A stretch of 64,000 bases of DNA, from positions 4,132,765 to 4,196,764 of the forward strand of contig RPFO01000164.1 in assembly GCA_009746045.1 (NCBI GenBank). Direction: 5' to 3'. Position 1 is the stretch's first letter; every line of letters begins with the position of its first letter. Below, piece by piece: positions 5,216 to 54,091 of the stretch. A program made the translations under genes and the position numbers. Below the pieces are notes generated by a model that did not search any database, was not told where the DNA came from, and saw nothing but the letters and a program-made list of their open reading frames with translations. Source of the DNA: Mesostigma viride. Lineage: Eukaryota > Streptophyta > Mesostigmatophyceae > Mesostigmatales > Mesostigmataceae.

Positions 5216-6834
5216 TTAAATTAAATTAAATTAAATTATAACATGCCTCCGTTGGGAGATCATGTAGCACATATTCCTTGATGGTTGGGTGGGATGGAAG
5301 GAGCCGCGTATAATCGAACTAACCTAACTCGAATCTAGTCTAGAAAAATCCTAACTACACTACTCATCAAAACGCCTCCTCCGCTTGGGGGGAGGTGGTT
5401 TGCCCACAGGGTCGGGCGTGTGAGCCTTGACAATCCTCTTCCACCCCATCTTGTTCTGCATGGCAGTCCAAAGAAGGGCCGGAGAGATCGAGTGGATGCG
5501 GTATTCAAACTGGGCTGGGACCAGTACTTAGGTCATCGATCCAGCAACATCTGTACGTAGTTCGTGACATGTTTCCCTACCTTTTTGGGAATGTCCTTCG
5601 GGCCAGGCCAGGTCAGAATGTGCCGTCCTGGCTGGCCAAGCCGCTGGGGGCCGGCCAGACCAAGGGCGGTGTCGACCTGGCTGGTGCGAGCAAGGTGTCC
5701 TACAAATGCTATCCTACGCTGTCTAATCTCGTCCGAAATACGGGGCATGCCCTGATACAAAGACTCTGATCGATGACGGGCGCTTGGAAAACCCTACGTT
5801 GAGGACCTGTCGGAGCATCCTGTAAACTGTGCCGGCTAGCCTAGATGCCAGCGTGGGTGTGATGATTGTCCACGCCTCGGCGCCATACGTGAGCACTGTA
5901 AGGACGAGGACCTTGAAGAGCATGCGCTTGCGGTGGTCGCCCAGGCCCTTGGAGCGCCAGTAGGTGTTGAGCGAACGAAGCCGAGCCCAGGCCAGGCCGA
6001 TGCGGGTGTCCACATCGTCGGCGGTGTCAGGGAGCCAGCTCCCTAACAGCTTGAAGCGATCGCGGAACGGGGCCGTCGTCCCATCGAGCAGGCGCGGCAG
6101 CGGCGGTGTACTGGAGGTCCCAATCACCATCGCCTCAGTTTTTACACTAATCTCCAACCCCACCGCCCTCGCCTCCAGGCCCAGACAGTCCAGCCAGGTC
6201 TGAATGTGCTCGGGGCGCGCGATGAGGGTGGTGTCATCCGTGCATGCGTATAAATCAGGTCGGCCAGGCGGTAACCAGGTCGAACCCCGCCATGTTCTTT
6301 CTCGTTAAGGATGTCCAAGCCTGGCTCGAGCAGTAAAGCGCGCACGTGCTCGGCGCATGACGTGATCCACGACAATAATGAACAGGTATGGGGACAGGAC
6401 GTACACAACCTTGCCACACCCCGTGGTGAAGGGGGAATGGTGGGGTGGTGCCTTCCGCAGTCCGCACTACTGCCTGTGAGCCCTCATACAGTCGGCGAAT
6501 GGCAGCAATAAACGCAGGTGGCAAGTGCTCGATCCAGAGCTAGGATGGCCCAAAGAGCCTCCCAGAGGACCGTGTCAAAGGCCTTGATATAGTCAACAAA
6601 AATGAAGACCAGCGGCAAACTGTATGCAGGGGGAAGGCGACGCACCTCCTCCATCAACCGGCGCGCGACAAACACAGCCATATATGACAGTATTACGACC
6701 ACGACGGAAACCCATCTGAGACTCACCCAGGTGGGGGTCCAGCGCGGCGCGGAGCCTGTGCAGCATCATGCGCATGAAGACCTTCAGCGCGGCGCTCTGG
6801 AGGCAGACACCCCTGTAGTTACCGGGGTCAGCAG
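5216..6834 (-). mobile_element. Degenerate 5'-truncated L1-like LINE (copy A) inserted in the microsatellite
   Basis: Read on the minus strand this is the 3' part of a LINE ORF2. It has an [12 protein letters not shown] segment, a FIFVDYIKAFDTVLW motif (RT motif A), a damaged motif B/C region and a C-terminal FVGHLARTSQVDTALGL segment. It is broken by several frameshifts (pieces at 6593-6877, 6484-6726, 6255-6524, 6142-6417, 5723-6163 and 5533-5760). The 3' end carries the family hairpin (5241-5265) and an (AATTT)n tail. CATC repeats flank both ends, so the element landed inside the microsatellite. It is clearly non-functional. Confidence 0.9.
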
Positions 6835-6877
6835 CATCCATCCATCCATCCATCCATCCATCCATCCATCCATCCAT
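6835..6877. repeat. CATC microsatellite, right side of LINE A
   Basis: About ten CATC units, continuing the array at 3886-5215 beyond the inserted LINE. Confidence 0.9.
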
Positions 6878-7319
6878 CGGGGTTAATTAATGCTCCGTGA
6901 CTTTCCAACGGGAGCACGAGTCTAATCAATTAATGAATTAATTAAAAGCCATATGAACCTTCTCAGGGATATTATGTGCTACGTACATGTACTCCCAACG
7001 GAGTTATGTTACTAATTAATTAATTAATTGCTGCCCGATGTGGTGAGGCACAGGCGATGTTGGAGTACGGGTCGATCAGGAGTTGGATTTTTCAGCGCCC
7101 ATGGTGCCCGGCCGGGGGTCTCCTATCCAACAGGGTCTAAAGCCCCATTGCCCATGCAGCTCACTCCAAATAAAAAAGTGTAAGGTGAAAATGGGTAGGC
7201 AGTGAAAAAATAGACAGGATGAACAAACATAACAGTGAGAGGAATAAAGAGGCGGCACAATTAATTAATTAAGTATAGACGCGTGCTCCCGTTGGGGAGT
7301 CACGGAGCATTAACCCCGA
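6878..7319. mobile_element. About 440-bp segment with inverted ends made of retroelement 3' termini
   Basis: The left end (6878-6924) and right end (7277-7319) are inverted copies of one sequence: CGGGGTTAAT, then GCTCCGTGACT, a CCAACGGGAGCACG hairpin and an AATTAATT-rich tail. The interior holds a plus-strand half-LINE 3' end with its own hairpin (6985-7009). The right flank resumes as GATGGATGG, the inverse of the left CATC array. It could be a TIR element or two head-to-head retroelement 3' ends; no coding content is seen. Confidence 0.4.
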
Positions 7320-7616
7320 TGGATGGACAATATTAGTATGCTCACGCGGGTCTTATTGCACCCACAGAATTTGCCGGATCATCCATCGTGGACATCCGAT
7401 TGCTGCTGTGGCATGCCTCTGGCGTGAAGGAGAAAGGGGGCCGGTCTCTGCCCTTTCTTCCTGTTGTGCACATACAGGGATTAAATTAAGCACTCCAGTG
7501 CTCCGTGACTCCCCAAAGGGAGCACGTGTCTAATTAAATAGTCATCCATTCATATATCCATTGCCCGGGTCCGTGATGGCTCCCCAATGGACTCTTTACC
7601 GGAGAATTAATTAATT
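7320..7616. other. Mosaic of short repeat fragments
   Basis: No gene. It contains another copy of the CGTG-type 3' hairpin (7504-7526) with an adjacent TTAAATTA tail. The rest is unassigned. Confidence 0.35.
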
Positions 7617-8035
7617 AGGAACATAACTCCGTTGGGAGTATATATGTAGCACATAGCCCTGAGAGGGGGCATATGAGCCTATAATACATTCTAAGCTACT
7701 TCCTGCAAGGGTGGGAATGTAAACAACACTTGCTCTAGGTGCACTAGCTAGGGCACGGCTGCACCACCCAGAGTCTCGGGCAACTCCCAGCTAAGGGGAG
7801 CCCGCGTCATAGGTGGGGAAGATCAGCATAGCTATACAAGCTAGAGCTTTAAGGCATGGCTTCTCAGCAGGGATCCATCCATCAGCAGGGATCCATCCAT
7901 CCACGGGAATATGTGCTACATGATCTCCCAACGGAGTCATGTTATAATTTTTAATTTAATTTTCTCAGCAGGGAGTGACTCCCGGCATGGGCACTGCATA
8001 AAAATAAAGCTGAGAATTGTGCCGGCCAGTAATAT
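7617..8035 (-). mobile_element. Half-LINE 3' UTR fragment (D5), interrupted by a tiny LINE insertion
   Basis: On the minus strand this matches the 3' UTR of the half-LINEs at 10.5-16.2 kb: the GTGCACCTAGAGCAAGTG-type block, GCAGGAAGTAGCTTAGAATG, CTCAGGGCTAT, and the terminal hairpin at 7621-7646 followed by a TTAATTAA tail. The ORF1 region is absent, so it is a severe 5' truncation. A second insertion splits it at about 7873-7969. Confidence 0.7.
7873..7969 (+). mobile_element. Extremely short LINE 3'-end insertion
   Basis: Under 100 bp of LINE 3' terminus: ATGTGCTACATGATCTCCC, the hairpin (7918-7942) and an AATTT-type tail. It interrupts the D5 fragment and is flanked by repeated TTCTCAGCAGGGA (about 7860-7872 and about 7970-7981), as expected for a target-site duplication. 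Confidence 0.65.
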
Positions 8036-8199
8036 TCAGAAATTCTGCACGAGACAAGTTGACGTACTATATGCCTCGCGTGCAGACACGTGTGTAGTAC
8101 TCCTACACACAGATCTCGAGTGATTTATCTAGTACCAAATCCGAAAGGCTTGCATCACTCCCCGGACAGGAGAACTTTTGCGGATGACTGTAGGTGTAA

Positions 8200-8290
8200 G
8201 TTGGCAATGCCATGGTAACCGGAGACAGCCGTCCTATAGTCAGCGAAAGTAAGTGCGAGAGGTCCCCAGTTCGATTCCGGTCGGATTCAT
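8200..8290 (+). repeat. Possible tRNA-derived SINE head (A- and B-box-like)
   Basis: A good RNA polymerase III B-box-like string, AGTTCGATTCCGG, lies at about 8270. A weaker A-box-like TGGCAATGCCATGGTAACC lies about 60 bases upstream. The segment does not fold into a convincing intact tRNA by eye. Its reverse strand reads NRTGDLSHLL-like, a pattern often seen opposite tRNA-like repeats. Only one copy is recognised here, so the assignment is tentative. Confidence 0.3.
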
Positions 8291-8397
8291 TTGCAGATCG
8301 CGTTTTTCCGCGTTTTCCGCGGCCCGGCACTGAACGCACATGGTTTTCACCTTTGCGGCGTGCCTGATCAGAATATATGCCTGGATGCATGCATGGC

Positions 8398-10490
8398 CGC
8401 CATTTTTGCGGGCTTTGCGGCCCGTGCCCCGTTGCTGGCGGCCCGGCACCTGCCGGTCATGCCCCGCCGCCGCCCCGGCCCGCTCTACCGCCAGGACCCC
8501 AAGGTCTTGGCCGCCCGGCACCGCCTCAAGCGTAACCGGGACCCGCTGCAGAAACCAGTGCTCAAGGCCGCCCTCATGGAGGCCTACGAGCACGCTCAGG
8601 ACGCGGAGGCGGCCCAGTGCATCGCGGATGCCAAGGCCTGCCAGGCTCGCAACCAGGGCAAGGACATGTGGTACCACCTCGACCGGCTCGGCGGCCGGCG
8701 GCAGCGCACCCCGGTGGAGCACACGGGGGACGGCACGGCGCCGGTCAGCCTTGACCGCTGGTTGGCCCACAATGTTTCCTTGACCGGTGGGGCTCGCGCC
8801 CCCCCCCCGCCGCTTCACCCCGAGACGGCCGCCCGCCTCGGGGTCGCCGGACCCCCGCTGCCGCCAGCGCCCCCCTCCTCGGCCGCGGACTACCAAGTCC
8901 CCGCCTTGCAGGAGGGCTGCCTTGCCACTGACGACGTCGTCCCCCCCTTCACTTTGAAGGAATTGGACGGCGCCCTTGCTCGCCTGCGGTACGATGCGGC
9001 GGTCGGTGCCGACCACCTTTCTGCTGAGCTGCTGAAGACCCCTGATCCGGCGGTTAGGGATCTTCTGCTGGCGTTCTGCAACCGTGGCCTGCTCTCTGAC
9101 GAGCCTCCGCCTGCTGAGTGGCAGACGGCCATCCGAGTCATGCTGTACAAGAAGGGCTCTGCTGCTGACCCCGGTAACTACCGGGGTGTCTGCCTCCAGA
9201 GCGCCGCGCTGAAGGTCTTCATGCGCATGATGCTGCACAGGCTCCGCGCGGCGCTGGACCCACACCTGGGTGAGTCTCAGATGGGTTTTCGTCGTGGTCG
9301 TAAGACTGTCATGGCTGTGTTTTTCGCGCGCCGATTATGGAGGAGGTGCGTCGCCTTCCCCCTGACAGTTTGCCGCTGGTCTTCATTTTTGTTGACTATA
9401 TCAAAGCCTTTGACACGGTTCTCTGGTGGGAGGCTCTTTGGGCCATCCTAGCTCTGGATCGGGTGCCACCTGCGTTTATTGCTGCCATTCGCCGACTGTA
9501 TGAGGGCTCACAGGCAGTAGTGCGGACTGCGGAAGGCACCACCCCACCATTCCCCCTCCACCACGGGGTGTGGCAAGGTTGTGTCCTGTCCCCATACCTG
9601 TTCATTATTGTCGTGGATCACGTCATGCGCCGAGCACGTGCGCGCTTTACTGCTCTTAAGGGGTTCGAGCCAGGCTTGGACATCCTTAACGTGAAAGAGC
9701 ACGGCGGGGTTAGACCTGGTTACCGCCTTGCCGACCTGATTTATGCGGATGATACCACCCTCATCGAGAGCCCCGAGCACATTCAGACCTGGCTGGACTG
9801 CCCGTGGGCCTGGAGGCGCGGGCGGTGGGGTTGGAGATTAGTGTCAAAACCGAGGCGATGGTGATTGGGGCCACCTCCAGTACACCACCGCTGCCGCGCC
9901 TGCTCGACGGGACGGAGGTCCCGTTCCGCGACCGCTTCAAGCTGTTGGGGAGCTGGCTTCCTGACACCGCCGACGATGTGGACACCCGCATCGGCCTTGC
10001 CTGGGCCAAGCTTCGTTCGCTCACACCCTACTGGCGCTCGAAGGGCCTGGGCGGGCACCGCAAGCGCATGCTCTTCAAGGTCCTCGTCCTCACGGTGCTC
10101 ACGTATGGCGCCGAGGCGTGGACCCTCCCACCCAAACTGGCAGCTAGGCTAGACGGCACGGTTTACAGGATGCTCCGACAGGTCCTTAACGTAGGTTTTT
10201 CCGAGCGTCCTTCATCAGAGTCTTTGTATCATGGCATGCCTCGTGTTTCGGACGAGATTAGGCAGCGTAGGATAGCATTTGTAGGACACCTTGCCCGCAC
10301 CAGCCAGGTCGACACCACCCTCGGTCTGGCCGGCCCCCAGCGGCTTGGCCAGCCAGGGCGGCACATTCTGACCTGGCCTGGCCCCGCGGACATTCCCAAA
10401 AGGGTAGGGAAACCTGTCACGAACTACGTTCAGATGTTGCTGGACGACCTAGTGGTCCCAGCCCAGTTTGAGCACCGCATCCACTCTCTC
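8398..10490 (+). pseudogene. LINE ORF2 fragment: reverse transcriptase and C-terminal region
   Basis: Pre-RT linker followed by RT. Visible blocks: GADHLSAELLKTPDPAVRDL and [19 protein letters not shown] (finger region), GFRRGR, FVDYIKAFDTVLW (motif A), HHGVWQGCVLSPYLF (motif B) and YADDTTLI (catalytic motif C), then LGSWLPDTADDVDTRIGLAW and a long C-terminal region. Frame breaks lie near 9330 (frame change before MEEVRRLP) and near 9800 (after IQTWLDC). An extra Trp codon sits in the FDTVLWW segment. The C-terminus is cut at 10490 by the half-LINE; the true end resumes at 16193. The APE-type endonuclease domain is absent. RT class: non-LTR, L1-like by overall pattern. Confidence 0.9.
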
Positions 10491-14116: not shown

Positions 14117-16134
14117 TGAATTGAATTGAATTGAATTGTAACATAACTCCGTTGGGAGTATATGTAGCACATAGCCCTTGAGAGGGGGCATATGGCCTAT
14201 CATACATCCTAAGCTACTTCCTGCAAGGGTGGGGATGTAAAGGACCCTTGCTCTAGGTGCACCAGGGCACTTGCATCCCCATGATCTTCAAGCTATGCCC
14301 AGCGAAGGGGGAGCCTGTCATGGGGGGGAAGATCAGCAGAGCTATACAAAAAGGCTAGGGCATGGCGTCTCAGCAGAGAGTTACTCCCTGCATGGGCACA
14401 ACATAGCTAAATAAAGCTAGGCATCATCTGGAGTGTGGCACATCATAGGCACACATGTACATGATTAAATAAAGCGTGTGGCTTAGCTAGGATAGTGCCT
14501 CTAGGAGGCGTACATGTACATGGCCACGGTCTATCTATTCTACACTACTACTGCTGTATTCCCCTAAGCTGGGGCGTCTGGAGTCGTTGGGGCCGCGGGG
14601 GTCGCCTGCCAGGGCTTGTGGCCGACGTAGATGGCCGCCCCCTTCCAGTACACCGGCTGCCCCGCCTTGGTCTTCCGGAGCTGGAGGTAGGTGGGCCATA
14701 GCTCCCGTCGCCGTTGTTGCTGCGCCAGGGTCAAGTCGTCGTCAAGGGTGAAGAGAGTCTTCTCGAGCCGCTTGCGGCGTCGGAGAAAAGAAATCTTGTC
14801 CGCCGGGGTCTTAAAGGTGAGAAGGAGCGGGGGCGGCCCTGCCTTACCCCGCGCGCGGGGAAGGCGGTGGGCGACCAGGTCGATCTCACCAGTAAGGCCC
14901 ATGCGACTAAGAATTTCTCTCTCAAACGCACGTGCAAGCTTCTCGGAATTCTCACCTTCCTCCATGTCGAGGTTCTTGACAATGACGTTAAGGCTGCGCT
15001 TGGCAAGCTCGGCCTCCTCGCGGAGGTCAAGCGTCTGCCGCTGGAGCTGGGCTGCGACGGCGGAGGTGGTGGAGGTGGTGTGCTGCTTAAGCATGTCCGC
15101 CCAGGTCGTGATGGGAGGAGCATCGCCGGCCAGGCCAGCAGAGGTTGGCTTGGCGGCAATGTCCTTCACCGCCTGGGCGGTGAGGCCCGCGGTGTTCTGC
15201 AGGACCTCGATAGCGATGGCATTATCCTTAAGACGTTGGTCAATGTCGCGGAGCTGGGCGGTGATGGAGTCGGTGGAGGCGGAGGGGGGGGGGTGGAGGC
15301 GAGGAGGGTGGCGGTGGCGGTGGGGATGGTGGGGAGCTCAGCAGCCAGCGTGCGACCCACAGCTGCCACATCTGCAGCTAGGGGCGTCACGTGCTGTGAG
15401 ATGGTTTCTTGGAGGTGGAGGAGGAAGGTGGATTCGGTCAAGGGGGAGGGGGTCCAGAGGTCCGTGACAGAGCGGTCAAGGATGGAAAAGAGGGCGGCGA
15501 GCTGAAGACGGGGGCGAGACCAGCGGGCCAGGTTCTCAGGTCGGTGAGTAAACCGGCCGTCAGGTCCAGGGCGGAGGCGGTAATGGCTGTGAAGGCGCTG
15601 GCACAGGTCGAGAATGGAGGCGTATGACCCATAAAACACGAGCTCCAGTATCTTGATGGGTGGCATGTCGAAAAAGCCGGGTCTGGCACCGTCGAAGGTG
15701 GAAAATAACCCGTCAACGTCAAAGTCGCGCTCAGACCAGCTTGGTTCGGTTGGGCGGCTGCGTTTTGGCTCGGGCGAGGCTGAGGGCGAGGCAGGAAGCC
15801 CGGGAGGGTGCTGGGCGACAACCAGTGCGCGACTAGGGTCACCACCGCCTTCCGGCCCTGATGGCGAAGCTGCAGCCGGAGCTGCAGACGTATTTTCATT
15901 GCCGAGCGCAGCCGTCAGGCTGCGTTGCGTCGATGGGCGTTTGCTCATCGTATATTGCGTAATAGCGTCGGAAAATTATATCAGCATGTGCGTCGTAGAA
16001 AGACGCGTCGATTGTGATATTCACGGCTAAATTCGGTGCTCAAACGTGAAAGTTATGAGCTCCGCCGTCAGCCATGGCTACCTCGTGGCTCGTGGCTCGT
16101 GGCTCGTGGCTCGAGAGATGGTGGCGGGCAGACG
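14117..16134 (-). mobile_element. Half-LINE D2, inverted, inserted into the 3' end of D1
   Basis: Flanked by a 7-bp TSD, GGGCTAT (14110-14116 and 16135-16141), which is the D1 sequence just before its 3' hairpin. On the minus strand: 5' CGAGCCAC repeats, ORF1 (15948-14564), a 3' UTR of about 400 bp, the hairpin (14141-14165) and an (AATTC)n tail (14117-14138). It is apparently full length at about 2.0 kb. Confidence 0.85.
14564..15948 (-). pseudogene. L1-type ORF1 protein of D2, frameshifted at a homopolymer
   Basis: Same protein as in D1: MSKRPSTQRSLTAALG start, Pro-rich linker, coiled coil, RRM-like core (SLNVIVKNLDMEEG, DLVAHRLPRARGKAG) and a TLDDDLTLAQQQRRRELW tail. The first frame runs 15948 to about 15290 and the second to 14564. 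The switch falls at a run of nine to ten G (about 15285-15295). Apart from that slip the ORF is intact, about 460 aa. The slip may be real or an assembly error. Confidence 0.8.
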
Positions 16135-16457
16135 GGGCTATGTGCTACATATACTCCCAACGGAGTTATGTTCCTAATTAATCCACTCTCTCTCCCGTCT
16201 TTGGACTGCCATGCAGAACAAGACGCGGTGGAAGAAGATTGTCAAGGCGCACACGCCCGACCCTGTGGGCAAGCCACCTCCCCCCAAGCGGAGGAGGCGT
16301 TTTGATGAGTAGTGTAGTTAGGATTTTCTAGATAGCTTAGAGTTAGGATAGTTCGATCACGCGGCTTCCTCCACCCCATCCATCATGGAATATGTGCTAC
16401 ATGACCTCCCCACGGAGGCATGTTATAATTTAATTTAATTTTTAATGCATGCATGGC

Positions 16458-22955: not shown

Positions 22956-35999
<13,044 letters not shown>

Positions 36000-36572: not shown

Positions 36573-38763
36573 AATTAAATTAAATTAAATTATAACATGC
36601 CTCCGTGGGGAGGTCATGTAGCACATATTTCATGATGGATGGGTGGTGTGGAGGAAGCCGCGTGATCGAACTATCCTAACTCTATCTAGAAAATCCTAAC
36701 TACACTACTCATCAAAACGCCTCCTCCGCTTGGGGGGAGGTGGCTTGCCCACAGGGTCGGGCGTGTGCGCCTTGACAATCTTCTTCCACCGCGTCTTGTC
36801 CTGCATGGCAGTCCAAAGACGGGAGAGAGAGTGGATGCGGTGCTCAAACTGGGCTGGGACCAACAGGTCGTCCAGCAACATCTGAACGTAGTTGGTGACA
36901 GGTTTCCCAACCCGTTTGGGAATGTCCGCGGGGCCAGGCCAGGTCAGAATGTGCCGCCCTGGCTGGCCAAGCCGCTGGGGGCCGGCCAGACCAAGGGTGG
37001 TGTCGACCTGGCTGGTGCGGGCAAGGTGTCCTACAAATGCTATCCTACGCTGCCTAATCTCGTCCGAAACACGAGGCATGCCATGATACAAAGACTCTGA
37101 TGACGGACGCTCGGAAAAACCTACATTAAGAACCTGCCGGAGCATCCTGTAAACTGTGCCGTCGAGCCGAGCTGCCAGTTTGGGTGGGAGGGTCCACGCC
37201 TCGGCGCCATACGTGAGCACCGTGAGGACGAGGACCTTGAAGAGCATGCGCTTGCGGTGCCCGTCCAGGCCCTTCGAGCGCCAGTAGGGTGTGAGCGACC
37301 GGAGCTTGGCCCAGGCAAGGCCGATGCGGGTGTCCACATCGTCGGCGGTGTCAGGAAGCCAGCTCCCCAACAGCTTGAAGCGGTCGCGGAACGGGACCTC
37401 CGTCCCGTCGAGCAGGCGCGGCAGCGGTGGTTTACTGGATGCCCCTATCACCATCGCCTCAGTTTTGACACTAATCTCCAGCCCCACCGCCCGCGCCTCG
37501 ATCCAGGCCCAGGCAGTCCAGCCAGGTCTGAATGTGCTCGGGGCTCTCAATGAGGGTGGTATCATCCGCATAAATCAGGTCGGCAAGGCGGTAACCAGGT
37601 CTAACCCCGCCGTGCTCTTTCACGTTAAGGATGTCCAAGCCTGGCTCGAACCCCTTAAGAGCAGTAAAGCGCGCACGTGCCCGACGCATGCTTGGCGCCA
37701 TACGTGAGCACCGTGAGGACGAGGACCTTGAAGAGCATGCGCTTGCGGTGCCCGTCCAGGCCCTTCGAGCGCCAGTAGGGTGTGAGCGACCGGAGCTTGG
37801 CCCAGGCAAGGCCGATGCGGGTGTCCACATCGTCGGCGGTGTCAGGAAGCCAGCTCCCCAACAGCTTGAAGCGGTCGCGGAACGGGACCTCCGTCCCGTC
37901 GAGCATGCAGGCGCGGCAGCGGTGGTTTACTGGATGCCCCTATCACCATCGCCTCAGTTTTGACACTAATCTCCAGCCCCACCGCCCGCGCCTCGATCCA
38001 GGCCCAGGCAGTCCAGCCAGGTCTGAATGTGCTCGGGGCTCTCAATGAGGGTGGTATCATCCGCATAAATCAGGTCGGCAAGGCGGTAACCAGGTCTAAC
38101 CCCGCCGTGCTCTTTCACGTTAAGGATGTCCAAGCCTGGCTCGAACCCCTTAAGAGCAGTAAAGCGCGCACGTGCCCGACGCATGACGTGATCCACGACA
38201 ATAATGAACAGGTATGGGGACAGGACACAACCTTGCCACACATCGTGGTGAAGGGGGAATGGTGGAGTGGTGCCCTCCGCAGTCCGCACTACTGCCTGTG
38301 AGCCCTCATACAGACGGCGGATGGCAGCAATAAACGCAGGTGGTACCCGATCCAGAGCTAGGATGGCCCAAAGAGCCTCCCAGAGAACCGTGTCAAAGGC
38401 CTTTAGATAGTCAACAAAAATGAAGACCAGCGGCAAACTGTCAGGGGGAAGTCGACGCACCTCCTCCATCAATTACCGGCGCGCGACAAACATAGCCATG
38501 ACAGTGTTACGACCACGACGGAAACCCATCTGAGACTCACCCAGGTGTGGGTCCAGCGCGGCGCGGAGCCTGTGCAGCATCATGCGCATGAAGACCTTCA
38601 GCGCGGCGCTCTGGAGGCAGACACCCCGGTAGTTACCGGGGTCAGCAGCAGAGCCCTTCTTGTACAGCATGACGCGGATGGCCGTCTGCCACTCAGCAGG
38701 CGGAGGCTCGTCAGAGAGCAGGACACGGTTGCAGAACGCCAGCAGAAGATCCCTAACCGTCAC
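36573..38763 (-). mobile_element. 5'-truncated L1-like LINE (copy E) with internal tandem duplication
   Basis: On the minus strand: finger region (38763-38473; [12 protein letters not shown]), motif A FVDYLKAFDTVLW, motif B HHDVWQGCVLSPYLF, motif C YADDTTLI, then LGSWLPDTADDVDTRIGLAW and a C-terminus ending KPPPPKRRRRFDE at 36705. The 3' hairpin lies at 36595-36619, followed by an (AATTT)n tail. A segment of about 490 bp is duplicated in tandem (37203-37690 and 37694-38185), breaking the frame. Another frame break lies near 38472. Non-functional. Confidence 0.92.
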
Positions 38764-39323: not shown

Positions 39324-42300
39324 TGTTCCGCCTCCCGGAGGAGGCGCCCGATGGCAACCTCTTCCTGCTGCCCTCCGAAGAGGCGCTTGCCACGTGCAAC
39401 TTCACCGGGGCCACCCCAGTGCCTGAAGGGGGCCGCCGCGTCGTCCAGCTGCCTATCAAAGTAGCCGGTAATTATGCCCCCTGGTTTTCACAAGCATTAT
39501 GAATGCTCCTAGGTGCCCGTGTGTGTGATGAAAACCTCCAGGTGCCCGTGTGCGTGATGAACAACTCGAGCTGCCCGTGTGCGTGATAAACATTGAACCT
39601 CAGGTGCCCGTGTGCGTGATGAACAACCCCAGGTGCCCTTGTGTGTGATGAACAACCCCAGGTGCCCGAGTGCGTGATGAACAACCCCAGGTGCCCGTGT
39701 GTGTGATGAACAACCCTAGGTGCCCGTGTGTGTGATGAACAACCCTAGCTGCCCGTGTGCGTGATGAACAACCCCAGGTGCCCGTGTGCGTGATGAACAA
39801 CCCCAGGTACCCGTGTGTGTGATGAACAACCCCAGGTACCCGTGTGCGTGATGAACAACCCGTGTGTGTGATGAACAACCCAAGCTGCCCGTGTGTGTGA
39901 TGAACAACCCGAGCTGCCTGTGTGTGTGATGAACAACCCTAGGTGCCCGTGTGCGTGATGAACAACCCGAGCTGCCTGTGTGTGTGATGAACAACCCGAG
40001 CTGCCCGTGTGCGTGATGAACAACCCCAGGTACCCGTGTGTGTGATGAACAACCCGTGTGTGTGATGAACAACCCCAGGTGCCCGTGTGTGTGATGAACA
40101 ACCGCAGGTACCCGTGTGTGTGATGAACAACCGCAGGTGCCCGTGTGTGTGATGAACAACCTCAGGTACCCGTGTGCGTGATGAACAACCGCAGGTACCC
40201 GTGTGCGTGATGAACAACCCGTGTGCGTGATGAACAACCCGTGTGTGTGATGAACAACCCGTGTGTGTGATGAACAACCGCAGGTACCCGTGTGTGTGAT
40301 GAACAACCCGTGTGCGTGATGAACAACCCCAGGTGCCCGTGTGTGTGATGAACAACCCCAGGTGCCCGTGTGTGTGATGAACAACCGCAGGTACCCGTGT
40401 GTGTGATGAACAACCGCAGGTACCCGTGTGTGTGATGAACAACCCCAGGTGCCCGTGTGTGTGATGAACAACCCCAGGTACCCGTGTGTGTGATGAACAA
40501 CCCGTGTGTGTGATGAACAACCGCAGGTACCCGTGTGTGTGATGAACAACCCGTGTGCGTGATGAACAACCCCAGGTACCCGTGTGTGTGATGAACAACC
40601 GCAGGTACCCGTGTGCGTGATGAACAACCCCAGGTGCCCGTGTGTGTGATGAACAACCCCAGGTACCCGTGTGTGTGATGAACAACCCCAGGTGCCCGTG
40701 TGTGTGATGAACAACCCCAGGTACCCGTGTGTGTGATGAACAACCCGTGTGTGTGATGAACAACCCCAGGTGCCCGTGTGTGTGATGAACAACCCCAGGT
40801 ACCCGTGTGTGTGATGAACAACCCCAGGTGCCCGTGTGTGTGATGAACAACCCCAGGTACCCGTGTGTGTGATGAACAACCCGTGTGTGTGATGAACAAC
40901 CCCAGGTATACCCGTGTGTGTGATGAACAACCCCAGGTGCCCGTGTGCGTGATGAACAACCCGTGTGTGTGATGAACAACCCCAGGTATACCCGTGTGTG
41001 TGATGAACAACCCCAGGTGCCCGTGTGTGTGATGAACAACCCCAGGTACCCGTGTGCGTGATGAACAACCGCAGGTACCCGTGTGTGTGATGAACAACCC
41101 CAGGTACCCGTGTGTGTGATGAACAACCCCAGGTACCCGTGTGTGTGATGAACAACCCCAGGTACCCGTGTGTGTGATGAACAACCCCAGGTACCCGTGT
41201 GCGTGATGAACAACCGCAGGTACCCGTGTGCGTGATGAACAACCGCAGGTACCCGTGTGTGTGATGAACAACCCCAGGTACCCGTGTGTGTGATGAACAA
41301 CCGCAGGTACCCGTGTGTGTGATGAACAACCGCAGGTACCCGTGTGTGTGATGAACAACCGCAGGTACCCGTGTGTGTGATGAACAACCCGTGTGCGTGA
41401 TGAACAACCCCATGCAGGTACCCGTGTGTGTGATGAACAACCCCAGGTACCCGTGTGTGTGATGAACAACCCGTGTGTGTGATGAACAACCTCAGGTACC
41501 CGTGTGTGTGATGAACAACCCCAGGTGCCCGTGTGTGTGATGAACAACCCCAGGTACCCGTGTGTGTGATGAACAACCCCAGGTACCCGTGTGTGTGATG
41601 AACAACCCCAGGTACCCGTGTGTGTGATGAACAACCCCAGGTACCCGTGTGTGTGATGAACAACCGCAGGTACCCGTGTGTGTGATGAACAACCCGTGTG
41701 CGTGATGAACAACCCCATGCAGGTACCCGTGTGTGTGATGAACAACCCCAGGTACCCGTGTGTGTGATGAACAACCCGTGTGTGTGATGAACAACCTCAG
41801 GTACCCGTGTGCGTGATGAACAACCCCAGGTACCCGTGTGTGTGATGAACAACCCCAGGTACCCGTGTGTGTGATGAACAACCCCAGGTACCCGTGTGCG
41901 TGATGAACAACCCCAGGTACCCGTGTGTGTGATGAACAACCCCAGGTACCCGTGTGTGTGATGAACAACCCCAGGTGCCCGTGTGCGTGATGAACAACCC
42001 CAGGTACCCGTGTGTGTGATGAACAACCCCAGGTACCCGTGTGTGTGATGAACAACCGCAGGTACCCGTGTGCGTGATGAACAACCCCAGGTACCCGTGT
42101 GTGTGATGAACAACCCCAGGTACCCGTGTGTGTGATGAACAACCCCAGGTACCCGTGTGCGTGATGAACAACCCCAGGTACCCGTGTGTGTGATGAACAA
42201 CCCCAGGTACCCGTGTGTGTGATGAACAACCCCAGGTGCCCGTGTGCGTGATGAACAACCCCAGGTACCCGTGTGTGTGATGAACAACCCCAGGTACCCG

Positions 42301-45300
42301 TGTGTGTGATGAACAACCGCAGGTACCCGTGTGTGTGATGAACAACCGCAGGTACCCGTGTGTGTGATGAACAACCCCAGGTACCCGTGTGTGTGATGAA
42401 CAACCGCAGGTACCCGTGTGTGTGATGAACAACCCCAGGTACCCGTGTGCGTGATGAACAACCCGTGTGCGTGATGAACAACCGCAGGTGCCCGTGTGTG
42501 TGATGAACAACCCCAGGTGCCCGTGTGTGTGATGAACAACCGTAGGTACCCGTGTGTGTGATGAACAACCGCAGGTGCCTGTGTGCGTGATGAACAACCC
42601 CAGGTACCCGTGTGTGTGATGAACAACCGCAGGTACCCGTGTGTGTGATGAACAACCGCAGGTACCCGTGTGTGTGATGAACAACCGCAGGTACCCGTGT
42701 GTGTGATGAACAACCCGTGTGTGTGATGAACAACCCCAGGTGCCCGTGTGTGTGATGAACAACCCCAGGTGCCCGTGTGTGTGATGAACAACCGTAGGTA
42801 CCCGTGTGTGTGATGAACAACCGCAGGTGCCTGTGTGCGTGATGAACAACCCCAGGTACCCGTGTGCGTGATGAACAACCCCAGGTGCCCGTGTGCGTGA
42901 TGAACAACCCCAGGTGCCCGTGTGCGTGATGAACAACCCCAGGTGCCCGTGTGCGTGATGAACAACCCCAGGTGCCCGTGTGCGTGATGAACAACCGCAG
43001 GTACCCGACTGTGTGTGATGAACAACCCCAGGTACCCGTGTGCGTGATGAACAACCGCAGGTACCCGTGTGCGTGATGAACAACCGCAGGTACCCGTGTG
43101 TGTGATGAACAACCGCAGGTACCCGTGTGTGTGATGAACAACCGCAGGTACCCGTGTGCGTGATGAACAACCGCAGGTACCCGTGTGTGTGATGAACAAC
43201 CGCAGGTACCCGTGTGCGTGATGAACAACCGCAGGTACCCGTGTGTGTGATGAACAACCGCAGGTACCCGTGTGTGTGATGAACAACCCCAGGTACCCGT
43301 GTGTGTGATGAACAACCGCAGGTACCCGTGTGCGTGATGAACAACCGCAGGTACCCGTGTGTGTGATGAACAACCGCAGGTACCCGTGTGTGTGATGAAC
43401 AACCGCAGGTACCCGTGTGTGTGATGAACAACCGCAGGTACCCGTGTGTGTGATGAACAACCGCAGGTACCCGTGTGTGTGATGAACAACCCCAGGTACC
43501 CGTGTGTGTGATGAACAACCGCAGGTACCCGTGTGTGTGATGAACAACCGCAGGTACCCGTGTGTGTGATGAACAACCGCAGGTACCCGTGTGCGTGATG
43601 AACAACCCCAGGTACCCGTGTGCGTGATGAACAACCCCAGGTACCCGTGTGCGTGATGAACAACCGCAGGTACCCGTGTGCGTGATGAACAACCGCAGGT
43701 ACCCGTGTGTGTGATGAACAACCGCAGGTACCCGTGTGTGTGATGAACAACCGCAGGTACCCGTGTGTGTGATGAACAACCGCAGGTACCCGTGTGTGTG
43801 ATGAACAACCGCAGGTACCCGTGTGTGTGATGAACAACCGCAGGTACCCGTGTGTGTGATGAACAACCGCAGGTACCCGTGTGTGTGATGAACAACCGCA
43901 GGTACCCGTGTGTGTGATGAACAACCGCAGGTACCCGTGTGTGTGATGAACAACCGCAGGTACCCGTGTGTGTGATGAACAACCCCAGGTACCCGTGTGT
44001 GTGATGAACAACCGCAGGTACCCGTGTGTGTGATGAACAACCCCAGGTACCCGTGTGTGTGATGAACAACCGCAGGTACCCGTGTGTGTGATGAACAACC
44101 GCAGGTACCCGTGTGTGTGATGAACAACCGCAGGTACCCGTGTGTGTGATGAACAACCCCAGGTACCCGTGTGTGTGATGAACAACCGCAGGTACCCGTG
44201 TGTGTGATGAACAACCGCAGGTACCCGTGTGTGTGATGAACAACCGCAGGTACCCGTGTGTGTGATGAACAACCGCAGGTACCCGTGTGTGTGATGAACA
44301 ACCCCAGGTACCCGTGTGTGTGATGAACAACCGCAGGTACCCGTGTGTGTGATGAACAACCGCAGGTACCCGTGTGCGTGATGAACAACCGCAGGTACCC
44401 GTGTGTGTGATGAACAACCGCAGGTACCCGTGTGTGTGATGAACAACCGCAGGTACCCGTGTGCGTGATGAACAACCCCAGGTGCCCGTGTGTGTGATGA
44501 ACAACCCGTGTGTGTGATGAACAACCCCAGGTACCCGTGTGCGTGATGAACAACCGCAGGTACCCGTGTGCGTGATGAACAACCCCAGGTACCCGTGTGT
44601 GTGATGAACAACCCCAGGTACCCGTGTGTGTGATGAACAACCCCAGGTACCCGTGTGCGTGATGAACAACCCCAGGTACCCGTGTGTGTGATGAACAACC
44701 CCAGGTACCCGTGTGCGTGATGAACAACCCCAGGTACCCGTGTGTGCGATGAACAACCGCAGGTACCCGTGTGTGTGATGAACAACCCCAGGTACCCGTG
44801 TGTGTGATGAACAACCGCAGGTACCCGTGTGCGTGATGAACAACCCCAGGTGCCCGTGTGTGTGATGAACAACCCCAGGTACCCGTGTGCGTGATGAACA
44901 ACCCCAGCTGCCCGTGTGCAGAACTAGCACCCTTAGGCTTCTACGTGGATTTCAACCCCGAGTTCGATTAGATAGGCTTCTTCACATGGAAGGGTTTTAT
45001 GCTCTGCGGTTCCCACATGGCCGCTTGGAGGGGTTCCACAGGCTCGTCCTGCTTGCCCGGGAACGCCTGCAGTTGACCATGAGCTCAGCTATGTTATACT
45101 TGTAGGGGGTACCTTTTGCTCCTCGGTACCAAGGATCCATACAGTATAACCTAACTAGTTCTTGTCTAAGGGACTGCGTGCTCACCATGGGGAGGCGGGG
45201 AGGATGGACAATACGGATGGACTGTGCGGTCTAGGCATGGAATACACCATCAGGACTAACCTATATGAAAACCAGGTGTGACGAACAACCGGATAGACCA

Positions 45301-48300
45301 CCCAGACAATGGCAGTCACTGAGAATGCTGCTGTACTGCCTGTCTGTGGCTGTGGCTGTGTATCAAGTCTGGCATTAACTAGCTCATCGATACTCCAACT
45401 GGCCCATCGACTCTCTAACCAGCCCATCGATACTCTTACTAGCATACTGTTCTCTAACTGGCCCATTGACACTAAAACTAGCCCACTGATACGCTGACTA
45501 TCCCATCATGGATAATCTGTACGCTCTCGGAGTGGATGCCAATGTTGGACTGCCAGGTTGCATAGGACGTAGAGTTGATTTGTTTTACCAGTCCTGCAGC
45601 GCTCTTATATTTCCAGCGATCAGCCTAGGCCCTTCACTTTCACTTAGCCTGAGCTCTCATTTCCATACTTTGTGGGGTGTTAATTCGTCGAGCCCCTGAC
45701 TTGTAAACATCAGCAATGGCTCGGAGCTAACCGGCAGGCAATCACTCTAGGTCTGATCCACCCAGTTGGGCTGCTGTGGAAGGATGTAGACCTGCTGTGT
45801 TCGATCGTGCCATCCGAACACACTCCGTGCCTAATGAGAATTACACTCTGGCAGAACGGCGCAGGCCATTCCACATTCTTGGCTATCAATTATTCCAACC
45901 ATCTCTTTGAATGGGCTCAAACGCGTGTTGGCGTGTCGCAGGGACCCTGTACATCGCTGACCTAGAGTACTGCAACGCAAACGTGAAGTTCGCCCTACAT
46001 ATCGGTAAGTGTGGCTGCTTCATTCTGTATGACATAGGCGTGCTGCAAGCTCCCATGAACTATGGAGAGGAGTTTTTCTGCGCAAAGCGATCCTTGCGTA
46101 CCACCGCGTGATCTGCTGGCTGTGTGAGGATGGTGCGCTGCAGGTTCCCATGCAGCTATCAGTCATGTTTTCCTAAGCAATTCTTGTGTGACATGTGATT
46201 GTTGTGGTGACAGCAAAGCGTCGCTCTTTGCACGTCTGCATTGCCTCACCGCATGCAGCCACACAACCATGCTTTCATCCTATATGCGACCATGCCAGGC
46301 GCATGCGGCGCACTCCATGGGCTCAAGGGACAGGCATTGCCAGCCACCTCTCCCACATGCAGAGTCGATGTTTTTAGCCATGTTTGCTGTCCATGCTCTT
46401 TTCATATGTGTCCGCCCCCTTATGCCCTTGCGGCGCTCGCATCGGCCCACGCACCTGCCACACAGACGAACTGGTCAAGCTCCTCGAGCTGCCCGAGGAA
46501 CTGTTTGGCGGCGGCAGCAGCTCCCTGGAGAAGAAGATGGTGCGCAGCGGCAGCACCAACCTGGGCAACCTGATCGCAGACTCGATGGCCCTCGTCGGCA
46601 ATGCCTTGTCCCCACAGCCCGTCCGCTTGGGCGTGTACAACAGTGAGTGGCACAGCGTGTTCAATGGCGAGTGTCCGTGAACAGTGGGGGGGGTGTGCAA
46701 TCGGGAGGGGCAGGGCATCGGCAGCATTAAGTGGCAGGCTGGACCATCTAGAACAGCGAGGTGGGCGCCCTGTGGGTTTTGGTCATTCTTAGGACACCGA
46801 ATATGTCCGAATATGTCTCCCCATTGTAAAATATGAGCTGATCAATCGAATATCCCCGACATCATCATCATCAGTGAAGCCTTGAATCGTCCCCGAATCA
46901 AGCAAGCAAAGATAGAGAGAAACACAAGGGGGGCGGTGAGATTGCTGGCTCATGGTTTCTGGGGTGGATGGTTCGCTACCTAAAAGCTTGCCTTGTACTC
47001 CCTTCTCTCTAGTGTAGTGAACAACAGTAGAAAACAGCCGATGAAAACCTCTTGTTCAGTTGTGCGTTTCCACACGTACACCGTACCAAGGATCTCCCAA
47101 CCTGGCCCCCAGATATATATATAACTTTTCCTCCGGGCTTTCTTTAACCCATTTTCACGGGCCTAACCACCTGATCCTTGCTTATCATGGTTACCTTGCG
47201 TATTGTTGTTACTGCTGGACAGTTGCGCTTTCAAAGCTGCTGGGTGTCCACCAATTTGTGCATAGTAAAACGAAGGAAGAAGCTATTAGTAGTGTGTCTT
47301 CTCCCCCTTCCCTCTTCCCCGGGCTTAACATATTATGATAACATATATGCCCCCTCGCAGGTGGTGGAATCGGAACCGGTGCCCCCAGGGGCCTTGTGGA
47401 CCTTGGCACTATACGGCGTTTCTTCCGCTTCCGCAACGGTTTCGCCGTCAAGGCCCTCAACGGCTCCGAGGTGGTCGCCATGCTCCGCCACTCCGCATCC
47501 GAGTTTGGCGACGGCGCCTTCCTCCAGGTCTCCTCCAACTTCCACGTGGTTCTGGTGATGACGCCCGAGGGCCGCGCCGAGCTGCGCGAGGCTCTCTACC
47601 GCAACGAGGACGGCCACCTGGTCCCCTTTGACGAGTTGGCCACCTACAATATCGCGATCAACGAGTACATGGGCAGGGGCGGCGACGATTACGACATGTT
47701 TGTGGACAAGCCTGACCTGCTGGACACGGATGAGTTCAAGGCTATCCAGTTTGCGGAGATTGACGCGCTAGGCGTCGCGCTGATTTGGACCTACCCTGAG
47801 ATTCCTATCTCCAACGAGGCCCGCTACACCATCCTGGGTATGTCATCACTTAGGACCAAGGCACAGCAATCCTTCCATGGACCCCTTGAAGGAACCCTAT
47901 GAACGCCTTTGTAGACCCCTTTGGACCCCTTATGGACCTCCTACCCACTCATTCATTCATTCATTCATTCATTCATTCATTCATTCATTCATTCATTCAT
48001 TCATTCATTCATTCATTCATTCATTCATTCATTCATTCATTCATTCATTCATTCATTCATTCATTCATTCATTCATTCATTCATTCATTCATTCATTCAT
48101 TCATTCATTCATTCATTCATTCATTCATTCATTCATTCATTCATTCATCCATTCATTCATCCATTCATTCATTCATTCATTCATTCAATCATTCATTCAC
48201 GCGCCTCCGTTGGAGAGTCACGGGGTACCAATTTTGAGTGGGTACCTTTCATCCCTGTTTGATGCACAGCAAGAAGGGGGAATGGGACCTCCCCCCTCTC

Positions 48301-50581: not shown

Positions 50582-50851
50582 CTCAAAACGCGGTGATGCT
50601 GCGGCAGCCTTTGAGCCCTGCACGGATTGCTATCGATTGATGTTGCCTTATGAAATTTGCACAATTGACGGAAATTGGAGCGACTAAGTGCTCGGGTGCC
50701 ATCAGTGAGACTTCCAACCCAGTCTTGCATGATTTTGCGAGAGGGGATAGCTTGATCCGTACCATGCATATATTCAATATATTCAATATATTCAATAGAT
50801 TCAATTGACTAATTTTTTTACTGACTAGGTTGTCCCCAGTTTACAAATTAA

Positions 50852-51559
50852 CCAATTTTACCCCGACTCCCGGAGGGCGCCGCCCGAGATTATATAAGAG
50901 GTACCTTGAAATTAAATAAGAGGCATGCCTCTATCCAGATATATTTTTGGAGGCGAATTTCTATTGGCGTTAAGTTGTAGTATAGTACGACAACGTGTCA
51001 GACCGTATAATTTATTCCGACTTCTACATTCAGTTCACCGCTTGGTCAAAAAAGGATCACTTATATCAAGAAAACAATAAAGATCACTTATATACCCTAC
51101 TTCTCCGTAAAATCTCATCGACCGGGTTTCGAAACAACCCACGAACGCCGTAGATGCAGATCCAACGGAGCAAACAACGTCAAGACCGACGCGGCGCCAA
51201 ATAGTCGCCACGGTTCCTTTTCTGCGAGCCATTTTACAACGTACGTCGCGCCGCGTCGTGTACCCAAGCCCTTTTCTGAACGTGAGATCCAAAATCCGCT
51301 TGCCAGACCGGGAACTCCGTCCAATACCGTCGTGCATTGAATTGAATTGGAACATAAGTCCTTCTTTCCGTCACCCTTGACATGTTTTCGTACAATACTA
51401 CAAATTAACGCCAATAGAAATTCGCCTCCGAACATATATCTCGATAGAGCTATGCGTCTTATTTAATTTCAAGGTACCTCTTAATTAATCTCGGCCCCCG
51501 CCTTCCGCTAATTTGCTAATTTGCTAAATTTGCTAAAAAAGAGCCAATTTTACCCCGAC
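50852..51559 (-). mobile_element. 708-bp MITE-like element, copy 2 (inverted)
   Basis: Near-identical reverse complement of 2947-3654 and exactly the same length. The 16-bp terminal repeat CCAATTTTACCCCGAC lies at 50852-50867 and 51544-51559. The flank AGGTTGTCCCCAGTTTACAA occurs on both sides here and (inverted) on the right of copy 1. The internal 106-codon frame (51355-51035) gives the same protein as copy 1. Confidence 0.65.
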
Positions 51560-52460
51560 TAGGTTGTCCCCAGTTTACAAATTAACAAAATTAACAAATT
51601 AACGCCGGCGGACTACCTGCGGACTGCTCGACGCGGAGTCGCCGGGCTACAAGTTCCGTACTTTACCAAACTCAGCCTTAGAGGCCGCCGCACCAATTTT
51701 TACTTCTTTCCGTCACATGGCTTGCGTTGGGTTCATCGACGAGCATCGACGCTCATCGACGGTGCAATCTGACGGCGGAGAATAAGTTCGCCACAGCATA
51801 GCGCGACGCAAGGGCTAAGATCCGACAACGTGACATGCAAAGCTTTATACCGCATCGCTAACCGTCCAACACCGTCGTACAGTACTGCCAGTCGACCGCA
51901 CCTCTGCCTCTTAACCGTCGAATGCGCAATCGATCTAGAAAGTAGAAACGTCCCCGCGACACTTCCGCGATTTCAGTACTTTCCGTCACCCTTGACAGGT
52001 TCCGTACAATACTACAAATTTACGCCAATAGAAACTCGCATCCATACATATATCTCGATAGAGGCGTGCGTCTTATTTAATTTCAAGGTAACTTACCTCT
52101 TAATTAATCTCGCCCCCCCGTTGTAACACCGTCCCCCCGTTGTAACACCGCCCCCCCGTTGTAACACCGTCCCCCCCCACGAACAGTACTTTCAACCGCA
52201 GCGAGCTGCCTTTTAACCGTCGAATGCGCAATCGATCTAGAAAGTATCCGCGATTTCAGTACATGCCGTCACCCTTGACAGTTGTCGTACAATAGTACAA
52301 ATTAACGCCAATAGAAACTTGCCTCCAAACATATATCTCGATAGAGGTATGCGTCTTATTTAATTTCAAGGTACCTCTTAATTAATCTCGGCCCCCGCCT
52401 TCCGCTAATTTGCTAATTTGCTAAATTTGCTAAAAAAGAGCCAATTTTACCCCGACTCAA
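51560..52460 (-). mobile_element. Diverged partial relatives of the 708-bp element
   Basis: Two partial copies in the same orientation end near 52108 and 52456, each with CGCCAATAGAAACT, TATATCTCGATAGAGG and CTTATTTAATTTCAAGGTA. Between them is a four-fold CCCCCCGTTGTAACACCG tandem (about 52107-52172). Their interiors (ACCGTCGAATGCGCAATCG) differ from the full copies. Confidence 0.6.
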
Positions 52461-52518
52461 TATATTCGATATATTCAATATATCATCCATACCACCCCCC
52501 TGGTTGAAATACAAACAT

Positions 52519-54091
52519 TAATTAATTAATTAATTAGTTAGGAACATAACTCCGTTGGGAGTATATGTAGCACATAGCCCTGAGAAGGGGCATATGAGCC
52601 TATAATACATTCTAAGCTACTTCCTGCAAGGGTGGGAATGTAAACAACACTTTCTCTAGGTGCACCAGGGCACCCGCACCCTCATGGTCTATCACGCTAT
52701 GCCCGGGTAAGGGGGGAGCATGCCTGTGAGGGGGAAGATCATCATGGCTATTCAAGAGCTATGGCATGGCTTCTCAGCAGAGAGTGACTCCCTGCATGGG
52801 CACAGCATTACTAAATAAGGCTAGGCATCGTCTGGAGTGTGGCACATCATAGGCACACATGTACATGACTAAAAAGGCTAGGCCTCAGCTGGTATAGTGC
52901 TTGTATTAGGCGGGCATGTACAAGGCCACTGTCTAACTATTCTACACTACTGCTGTATTCCCCTAGGCTGGGGCTGGAGTTGCTGGGGCCGCGGTGGTCG
53001 AGGGGGTCGCTTGCCAGGGCTTGTGGCCGACGTAGATGGCCGCCCCCTTCCAGTACACCGGCTGGCCCGCCTTGGTCTGCCGGAGCTGGAGGTAGGTCTG
53101 CCATAGCTCCCGTCGCCGTTGTTGCTGTGCCAGGGTCAAGTCGTCGTCAAGGGTGAAGAGAGTCTTCTCGAGCCGCTTGCGGCGTCTGAGAAAAGAAATC
53201 TTGTCCGCCGGGGTCTTAAAGGTGAGAAGGAGCGGGGGCGGCCCTGCCTTACCCCGCGCGCGGGGAAGGCGGTGGGCGGCCAGCTCGATCTCACCAGTAA
53301 GGCCCATGCGATCAAGGATTTCTCTCTCAAAAGCACGCGCAAGCTTCTCGGAATTCTCACCTTCCTCCATCTTGAGATTCTTGACAATGACGTTGAGGCT
53401 GCGCTTGGCGAGCTCGGCCTCCTCGCGGAGGTCGAGCGTCTGCCGCTGGAGCTGGGCTGCGACGGCGGAGGTGGTGGAGGTGGTATGTTGCTTAAGCATG
53501 TCCGCCCAGGTCGTGATGGGAGGAGCATCGCCGGCCAGGCCAGCCGGGGCTGGCTTGGCGGCAATGTCCTTCACTGCCTGGGCGGTGAGGCCGGCTGTGT
53601 TCTGCAAGACCTCGATAGCGATTGCATTATCCTTGAGGCGCTGGTCGATGTCGCGGAGCTGGGCGGTGATGGAGTCGGTGGAGGCGGAGGGGGGGGGGGG
53701 TGGAGGCGAGGAGGGTGGCGGTGGCGGTGGGGATGGTGGGGAGCTCAGCAGCCAGCGTGCCGCCAAGTGCCGCCACATCTGCGGCAAGAGGGGTCACGTG
53801 CTGCTCGAAAGCTTCCTTGAGGATGGTGCGGATGGAGGCTTCGGAGGGGAAGGGGGGCGGTTTGGGAGCCCAGATCTCGGATTCGGAGCGTCCAACAAGG
53901 GAGCAGAGGGCGAAGCGTTGAAGCTTGGGGCGAGGCATGCGGTGAATGATGGGGAGAGCCTCGGCGGGGTCGACAAGCCTGCCGTCACCAGGCCAGCGGC
54001 CACGGTTGTGGGACGTGAGGTACACGCACAGGGCTAGAAGCGAGGCGTGATTGCCGTAATAAAAGTCTTCCATAATCCAACCGGGGCTGCA
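52519..54091 (-). mobile_element. Half-LINE D3 (5'-truncated)
   Basis: Flanked by a 12-bp TSD, AAATACAAACAT (52507-52518 and 54092-54103). On the minus strand: ORF1 lacking its start, a 3' UTR of about 400 bp, the hairpin (52544-52568) and a TTAATTAA tail. The body closely resembles D1 and D2. Confidence 0.88.
52963..54091 (-). pseudogene. L1-type ORF1 protein of D3 (truncated, frameshifted)
   Basis: The part from WIMEDFYYGNHASLLALCV to the stop after ATPAPA is present. It includes the coiled coil (QLRDIDQRLKDNAIAIEVLQ), SLNVIVKNLKMEEG, HRLPRARGKAG and TLDDDLTLAQQQRRRELW. The frame changes at a run of about 11 G (near 53690-53700), the same homopolymer as in D2. The first ~90 codons are lost. 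Confidence 0.8.

Follow-up and report, generated by a model that had tools for sequence, protein, structure and literature searches.

A stretch of 64,000 nucleotides of the genome of the streptophyte Mesostigma viride (contig RPFO01000164.1, hereafter the window) carries retroelement ends with small terminal hairpins, and comparison with further genomic loci (labelled L0nn) reveals three long interspersed nuclear elements (LINEs) with a second open reading frame (ORF2), named A, C1 and E, each of which has a partner half-LINE with ORF1 alone, named B, C2 and E2, respectively, that ends in the same hairpin, a different one in every pair; the A/B case was measured, whereas the C1/C2 and E/E2 cases were judged by reading the sequences. 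The hairpin is very probably a 3′-terminal RNA structure of LINEs of the apurinic/apyrimidinic endonuclease (APE) type, most likely serving as the handle for template recognition by the ORF2 reverse transcriptase (RT), and ORF1-only half-LINEs would be copied through that same hairpin. A previous sequence-only reading of the window had proposed a hairpin common to ORF2-bearing LINEs and ORF1-only elements with otherwise unrelated 3′ untranslated regions (3′ UTRs), which holds for A and B, but its picture of a single shared hairpin was too simple, as three pairs exist, each with a different hairpin, and the CGTG class, taken there for a third variant of the same set, is actually the separate pair C1/C2.

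Hairpin structure and compensatory change

The 13 hairpins listed in that reading are all present at their positions, just 5′ of an AT-rich tail (Table 1). When folded in isolation, the sites show two stems, lower and upper, separated by a bulge of one base and closed by a loop of 4 bases, with the exceptions of 48200-48222 and 7621-7646; the bulge, a feature of classes A, B and C, was missing from the earlier description. In element orientation, the ACAT class reads TATGTGCT, followed by a 5-pair lower stem, a single bulged base, a 5-pair upper stem and a CAAC or CCAC loop (as in most of 100 ACAT-class genome matches), and the stem is mostly followed by TTATA, TTACA, TTCCT or TTGAT, and then by a tail of (AATTT)n, (AATTC)n or (TAAT)n. 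An exact copy of the core CTCCCAACGGAG is present at 7 window sites and a copy with a single mismatch at 2, and a search of the window at up to 2 mismatches picks up none of the four sites of the CGTG class. Because 20 sequences generated from the window by a first-order Markov model average 5.85 core matches at up to 2 mismatches, two-mismatch matches are uninformative, whereas exact ones are informative. No Rfam family, either of the UnaL2 type or of another LINE RNA, reached its gathering threshold in the window with covariance models.

Patterns derived from these ends were counted through 440 Mb in 2,243 contigs. The ACAT-class pattern (TGTGCTN7CTCCN4GGAG plus ten further bases) matched 11,819 times (5,855 + 5,964), with 1 match for the reversed-pattern control, and the pattern TGTGCTNNNNNNNCTCCNNNNGGAG matched 11,966 times (control, 2). 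The CGTG class gave 7,505 matches (3,690 + 3,815; control, 0), and the end of LINE E gave 4,410 (control, 47) with a pattern that fixes only the flank of the hairpin, the exact hairpin being present in 14 of the 18 matches given with their letters. The three classes thus total 23,734 pattern matches. None of 8 loci fetched from 150 matches of an RVT_1 family search contained the hairpin.

Pairing was followed in both arms at the first 100 places of the 11,819 ACAT-class matches, naming n1-n7 the seven bases before CTCC and m1-m6 those after GGAG. The bases n5 and m2 pair in 96 of the 100 (G-C 40, A-T 34, G.T 9, C-G 8, T.G 5), the other lower-stem pairs being kept in 98 (n4-m3), 92 (n1-m6), 93 (n2-m5) and 98 (n3-m4), and n7-m1 in 86. 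In a blind test, the 3′ partners were predicted from the 5′ arms alone and both arms were then printed for 100 places: rows with ACATC carried the predicted G in 8 of 9 cases and GATGT in 7 of 9, and rows with ACAGA carried TCTGT (predicted C) in 2 of 4. A C or T at n5 was found in 1,671 copies, and the first 100 of these show G opposite in 88 (41 of 42 with C, 47 of 58 with T) and lack it in 12. The mismatched words ACATC..TTATGT (C:T) and ACATA..TGATGT (A:G) occur genome-wide just 4 and 7 times, and the paired words ACATA..TTATGT (A-T) and ACATC..TGATGT (C-G), counted among the first 100 places alone, 27 and 7 times. On 42 distinct sequences, the covariation score was 0.195, a value reached by none of 500 shuffles and far from the controls with the partner slid (0.045 at most); cells changed on both sides numbered 29 versus a shuffled mean of 9.7, and further pair types 10, a number reached by 29 of the 500 shuffles. 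Moreover, in a tree of 18 half-LINE B copies built from their 3′ UTRs minus the hairpin, with the arms mapped by parsimony, n5 changes seven times and m2 three times, and in this biased sample each of the three m2 changes coincides with an n5 change on its branch, with pairing kept; four one-sided changes yield wobbles, and at n4-m3 there is a single change, which affects the two sides together. These data support a 3′-end RNA structure kept by compensatory change at two variable pairs, n5-m2 and n7-m1.

Several points weigh against such a reading. The constancy of TGTGCT, CTCC and GGAG arises by construction, as they are fixed by the search patterns, and the increase of n7-m1 from 86 to 99 of 100, obtained if n6 may pair with m1 through a bulge shift, was allowed only after the data had been seen. 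Pairs with two-sided change number 3, a value that 189 of the 500 shuffles reach and that does not exceed them. The tree keeps pairing in 18 of 18 copies, but many of its loci were picked by hairpin type, with paired types taken, and 11 of 48 hairpins, B1 copies among them, were dropped for falling outside the A or B filters. ACATTTA with a T:T opposition accounts for 11 of the 100 copies listed for a pyrimidine at n5, and the hairpin of E has no bulge. Finally, a base other than T at n4 after ACA occurs in 547 copies, and the first 100 of them comprise 5 G-C pairs, 1 G.T reached through an indel and 94 unpaired variants, 61 of the 100 belonging to one type, ACAGATA/TTATGT, which was amplified in spite of its G:A mismatch and of a fold energy of -7.4 kcal/mol versus -11.6 for its compensated sister ACAGATA/TTCTGT. 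Since this mismatched subfamily multiplied, the lower stem is constrained but not needed pair by pair, and the earlier claim that pairing is kept by compensation stands at n5-m2 and n7-m1 and mostly fails at n4-m3. As for the lower stems assigned to each family, LINE A has G at n5 in 19 of 19 copies (18 ACATG, as proposed, and one GCATG), but half-LINE B, far from carrying ACATA alone, shows five arms (ACATA, ACATC, ACATT, ACATG and ACAGA).

LINEs and half-LINEs with common ends

The ORF2 of LINE A is a frame of 1,064 amino acids in L029, with an RVT_1 match of 83.3 bits and an Exo_endo_phos match of 22.7 bits, below the cut-off of 24.5, and its nearest solved structure is human L1 ORF2p (E 3.6e-13). 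A query of the genome with the C-terminal part of ORF2 gave 25,835 first-look candidates, 135 of which were scored. A two-component organisation, in which different elements would carry ORF1 and ORF2, was considered and rejected for LINE A, given that it has its own ORF1 upstream of ORF2 in L053 (one copy, with the frame shifted near the start). Half-LINE B, in turn, is about 2.0 kb long with a single ORF region, its copy in L028 matching 1,988 of the 2,041 bases of 14120-16160 at 95.5%, and no match to ORF2 was found in that locus. The structural model of its ORF1 protein (predicted local distance difference test, 67.2, with low-confidence stretches) predicts long helices plus a part resembling an RNA-recognition motif (RRM), and has as its top PDB match the central domain of human LINE-1 ORF1p (2w7a; probability 1.00, E 6.3e-3, target template-modelling score 0.63), no PDB match reaching an E of 0.001 or better. 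The ORF1 of half-LINE B is 26% identical to that of LINE A (the single L053 copy) versus 40-62% to other half-LINE ORF1s, and this low identity to the LINE's own ORF1 marks the half-LINEs as an old lineage rather than fresh LINE deletions.

Compared without gaps per ten bases, the A and B 3′ UTRs show background identity (0.21-0.31) from -120 to -11, then 0.49 from -10 to -1, 0.97 at the anchor and 0.70, 0.80, 0.59 and 0.53 thereafter, the last values including the AATT-rich tail. Ungapped identity over the same stretch also drops inside the families (0.28-0.53 within A, 0.32-0.61 within B), and since indels lower it even there, the gapped comparison weighs more: a sensitive BLAST of the A against the B upstream parts gave 101 matches, none with an E below 0.46 among the matches listed. 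Outside about 40 bases, A and B therefore have unrelated 3′ UTRs, as the sequence-only reading had claimed, and descent of the whole 3′ UTR, the alternative that it had named, is excluded for this pair. That the half-LINE arose recently from the resident LINE by deletion is contradicted by the 26% ORF1 identity together with these unrelated 3′ UTRs.

Copies reduced to their ends exist (L019:5191-5269 and L038), as target-primed reverse transcription (TPRT) would give. The LINE A copy of L029 is 5′-truncated and inserted in another repeat: 8 near-identical copies were read upstream of its start, of which 7 share the approximately 150 bases read and L062 shares the nearer part. L029:1-2614 is this different, high-copy repeat, with the LINE A copy inserted at its end, and 39 further copies at 99-100% identity were among the matches listed for its last ~600 bases. 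In the LINE A end at L019:5191-5269, an inverted copy of its own end lies inside the hairpin, as from template switching, and the LINE A copy at L030:2142-2600 has its 5′ end joined to another piece of LINE ORF2, in a rearranged insertion. In the case of half-LINE B, a second hairpin adjoins the terminal one on its 5′ side (window 14166-14200, minus strand, and L031-L037), in GCCATATGCCCCTTCTCAGGGATATG or GGCCATATGCCCCCTCTCAAGGGCTATG; the bulge moves between variants of this stretch, yet both hairpins can pair.

In the second pair, LINE C1 is found in L052, where the hairpin, with three extra bases, lies within about 370 bases of the C-terminal part of ORF2, and in L051, where a half-LINE is inserted between the same ORF2 and the hairpin. 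The C2 ORF1 lies 5′ of a CGTG-class hairpin in L028, L015, L058 and L056/L057 (the last two are overlapping loci). An origin of this class as a short interspersed nuclear element (SINE) was first suspected, and dropped when the upstream ORF1 was found; no SINE-type head (tRNA-, 5S- or 7SL-derived) was detected in the window by ARAGORN (bacterial settings) or Rfam. In the third pair, LINE E, with copies in L018, L025 and L027 plus a diverged one in L015, terminates in TTATGCTCACGTGACGCAGTCACGTG, after which comes TCTATTAATTAATT (or, in the L018 copy, TTACGCTC), and half-LINE E2 ends in GGCACCCACGTGACGCAGTCACGTG followed by CTTATTAATT, with CACGTGAC-GCA-GTCACGTG common to both; E2 shows ORF1 and end in L027, and ORF1 alone in L019 and L054, its ends falling outside those loci.

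Over the stretches compared, the ORF2s are 55-58% (A-E), 46-53% (A-C1) and 49-54% (C1-E) identical, and the half-LINE ORF1s 64-68% (C2-E2), 48-62% (B-C2) and 40-47% (B-E2). The ORF2s are thus nearly equidistant. Partner switching is hinted at by C2 and E2, which have the closest pair of ORF1s but different hairpins, with roughly equal distances among the partner ORF2s (46-58%).

Mapped ends and other features of the window

Table 1. Terminal hairpins and associated element parts in the window
Positions	Strand	Feature	Remarks
5241..5265	-	Terminal hairpin, LINE A, A2 type (T.G top pair)	LINE piece ~5241-6836
6896..6918	+	CGTG-class hairpin, C1 type	Assigned by upstream context (GGGGTTAAT..) and AGTCTAAT tail
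6985..7009	+	Terminal hairpin, short half-LINE B end (~6935-7023)	Folded
7282..7304	-	CGTG-class hairpin, C1 type	Assigned by upstream context
7504..7526	+	CGTG-class hairpin, C2 (half-LINE) type 3′ end, ~7337-7526	Folded
7621..7646	-	Terminal hairpin, 5′-truncated half-LINE B (~7604-7873)	Two extra lower-stem bases
7918..7942	+	Terminal hairpin, LINE A3 type (ACATGA.T.CTCC / GGAG TCATGT; bulge moved by one)	Folded
14141..14165	-	Terminal hairpin, half-LINE B1, AATTC-repeat tail	Element 14141 to ~16102
16147..16171	+	Terminal hairpin, half-LINE B from ~10494, split by the 14141-16102 element	Nesting deduced from the repeat map
16399..16423	+	Terminal hairpin, LINE A copy split by nested half-LINEs	LINE pieces ~8396-10490, 16181-16423
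36595..36619	-	Terminal hairpin, LINE A, A1 type (ACATG.A.CCTCC CCAC GGAGG CATGT)	Folded; 85 bases past ORF2 frame end at 36705
36595..38763	-	LINE A copy, as far as mapped, carrying parts of ORF2	RVT_1 part at 37966-38472; C-terminal part at 36705-37571
48200..48222	-	Decayed CGTG-class hairpin, imperfect	Folded
52544..52568	-	Terminal hairpin, half-LINE B	Folded
52963..53787	-	ORF1 frame, half-LINE B	Predicted RRM resembling the human L1 ORF1p central domain

Apart from these elements, the window contains a 750-bp repeat (2946-3695 and 50811-51560, 99% identical, with pieces in L014) whose internal 130-bp inverted repeats make it look like a foldback or non-autonomous DNA transposon. A large tandem array of 29-bp units, open in several frames, spans 39466-44930, and parts of a gene for DAAF9 (dynein axonemal assembly factor 9) lie on the plus strand at 22956-23480 and 33104-33799, which points to a eukaryote with cilia. 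The minus strand of 55662-63707 shows several long ORFs, with no Pfam match in the five scanned, and this region has no match longer than 100 bases among the other loci compared.

Probable template recognition and its alternatives

The most likely pathway implies that the ORF2 protein of each LINE would recognise the terminal hairpin of its own RNA, and that TPRT would begin at the repeat tail just past the hairpin, in a recognition of the stringent type. A half-LINE, as it carries the hairpin of a particular LINE, would be copied in trans by the ORF2 protein of that LINE. We infer that RNA is the working form of the hairpin, which is itself a further example of a kind known from UnaL2, ZfL2 and plant L1/SINE pairs.

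As in UnaL2, ZfL2-1 and ZfL2-2, a terminal stem-loop precedes short repeats, and for those elements it is reported that zebrafish ZfL2 no longer retrotransposed once its stem-loop was deleted or swapped, that a swapped stem kept about half of the activity in one element, that the loop is recognised specifically and the stem is partly exchangeable, that eel UnaL2 needs its single bulge (as cited there), and that ORF2 binds its cognate stem-loop (PMC4176376). In the case of plant L1, template recognition was deduced from a shared hairpin with compensatory mutations; LINE1-1_ZM with ZmSINE2/3, where the loop is also conserved, and Chlamydomonas L1-1_CR with SINEX-3_CR share approximately 50 or 80 bases at their 3′ ends (PMC3747384), and further LINE pairs with shared 3′ ends are described in PMC5135761. 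The shared-tail partners of those stringent LINEs, including the plant and Chlamydomonas pairs, are SINEs (PMC3747384, PMC5135761), whereas here they are ORF1-only half-LINEs. Poly(A) repeats form the tail of the Chlamydomonas pair, in place of the AT-rich unit repeats found here. No report of ORF1-only elements each hairpin-matched to a different LINE of one genome was found in the open-licence literature, with subscription journals and Repbase outside that scope.

The nearest ORF1-only elements known to us are HAL1 and HeT-A. Recognition in HAL1 is of the relaxed, poly(A) kind, and we know of no terminal hairpin shared by HeT-A with TART/TAHRE. Mammalian HAL1 (half-L1) is likewise non-autonomous and codes for ORF1p only (PMC5753468), but it was derived from L1 several times, whereas the ORF1 described here belongs to an old lineage of its own, and what the elements have in common with their LINEs is a specific hairpin. 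Drosophila HeT-A codes only for a Gag-like protein, with TART and TAHRE also encoding an RT (PMC3776773), but it is confined to chromosome ends, in contrast to the thousands of copies in ordinary contigs observed here.

On the other hand, the common hairpin could be the result of simple descent, with half-LINEs as deletion derivatives of LINEs that inherited it without any function. Mammalian HAL1 elements do arise from L1 (PMC5753468), and the LINE A ORF1 of L053 is related to half-LINE ORF1; this origin is, however, very improbable in view of the unrelated A and B 3′ UTRs, a B ORF1 much closer to other half-LINE ORF1s (40-62%) than to that of LINE A (26%), and stems that change by compensation. 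It is also improbable that the hairpin serves RNA 3′-end formation or stability, or transcription pausing, rather than recognition by the RT. The histone mRNA stem-loop acts in RNA 3′-end formation or stability, the hairpins do sit at the element end, and compensatory change proves only that some structure matters. However, the hairpins follow LINE identity (A/B, C1/C2, E/E2), which would be needless for a general processing signal, and ZfL2 offers a precedent for RT recognition (PMC4176376). A role at the DNA level, with the inverted repeat as a target, recombination or nesting site for insertions, is hardly credible: the elements do nest in each other's ends, but the G.T and T.G wobbles that are usual in RNA stems make up 14 of 100 at n5-m2, and in the ORF-bearing copies examined the hairpin sits between the ORF, on its 5′ side, and the tail, on its 3′ side.

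Returning to recognition of the hairpin by the ORF2 RT, it may be suggested, more tentatively, that one old ORF1-only lineage has tracked the RNA-recognition specificity of its hosts, its terminal hairpins having changed to fit three LINEs, and that LINE particles may also be acted on in trans by the diverged ORF1 protein of this lineage. The hairpin specificity of LINEs and its acquisition by non-autonomous elements have usually been argued for a single LINE/SINE pair at a time, whereas one genome offers here three pairs, a naturally compensated series of stems and one amplified mismatched subfamily, natural variants with which lock-and-key specificity is directly testable. These pairs point to ORF1-only elements, besides SINEs, as users of the stringent route.

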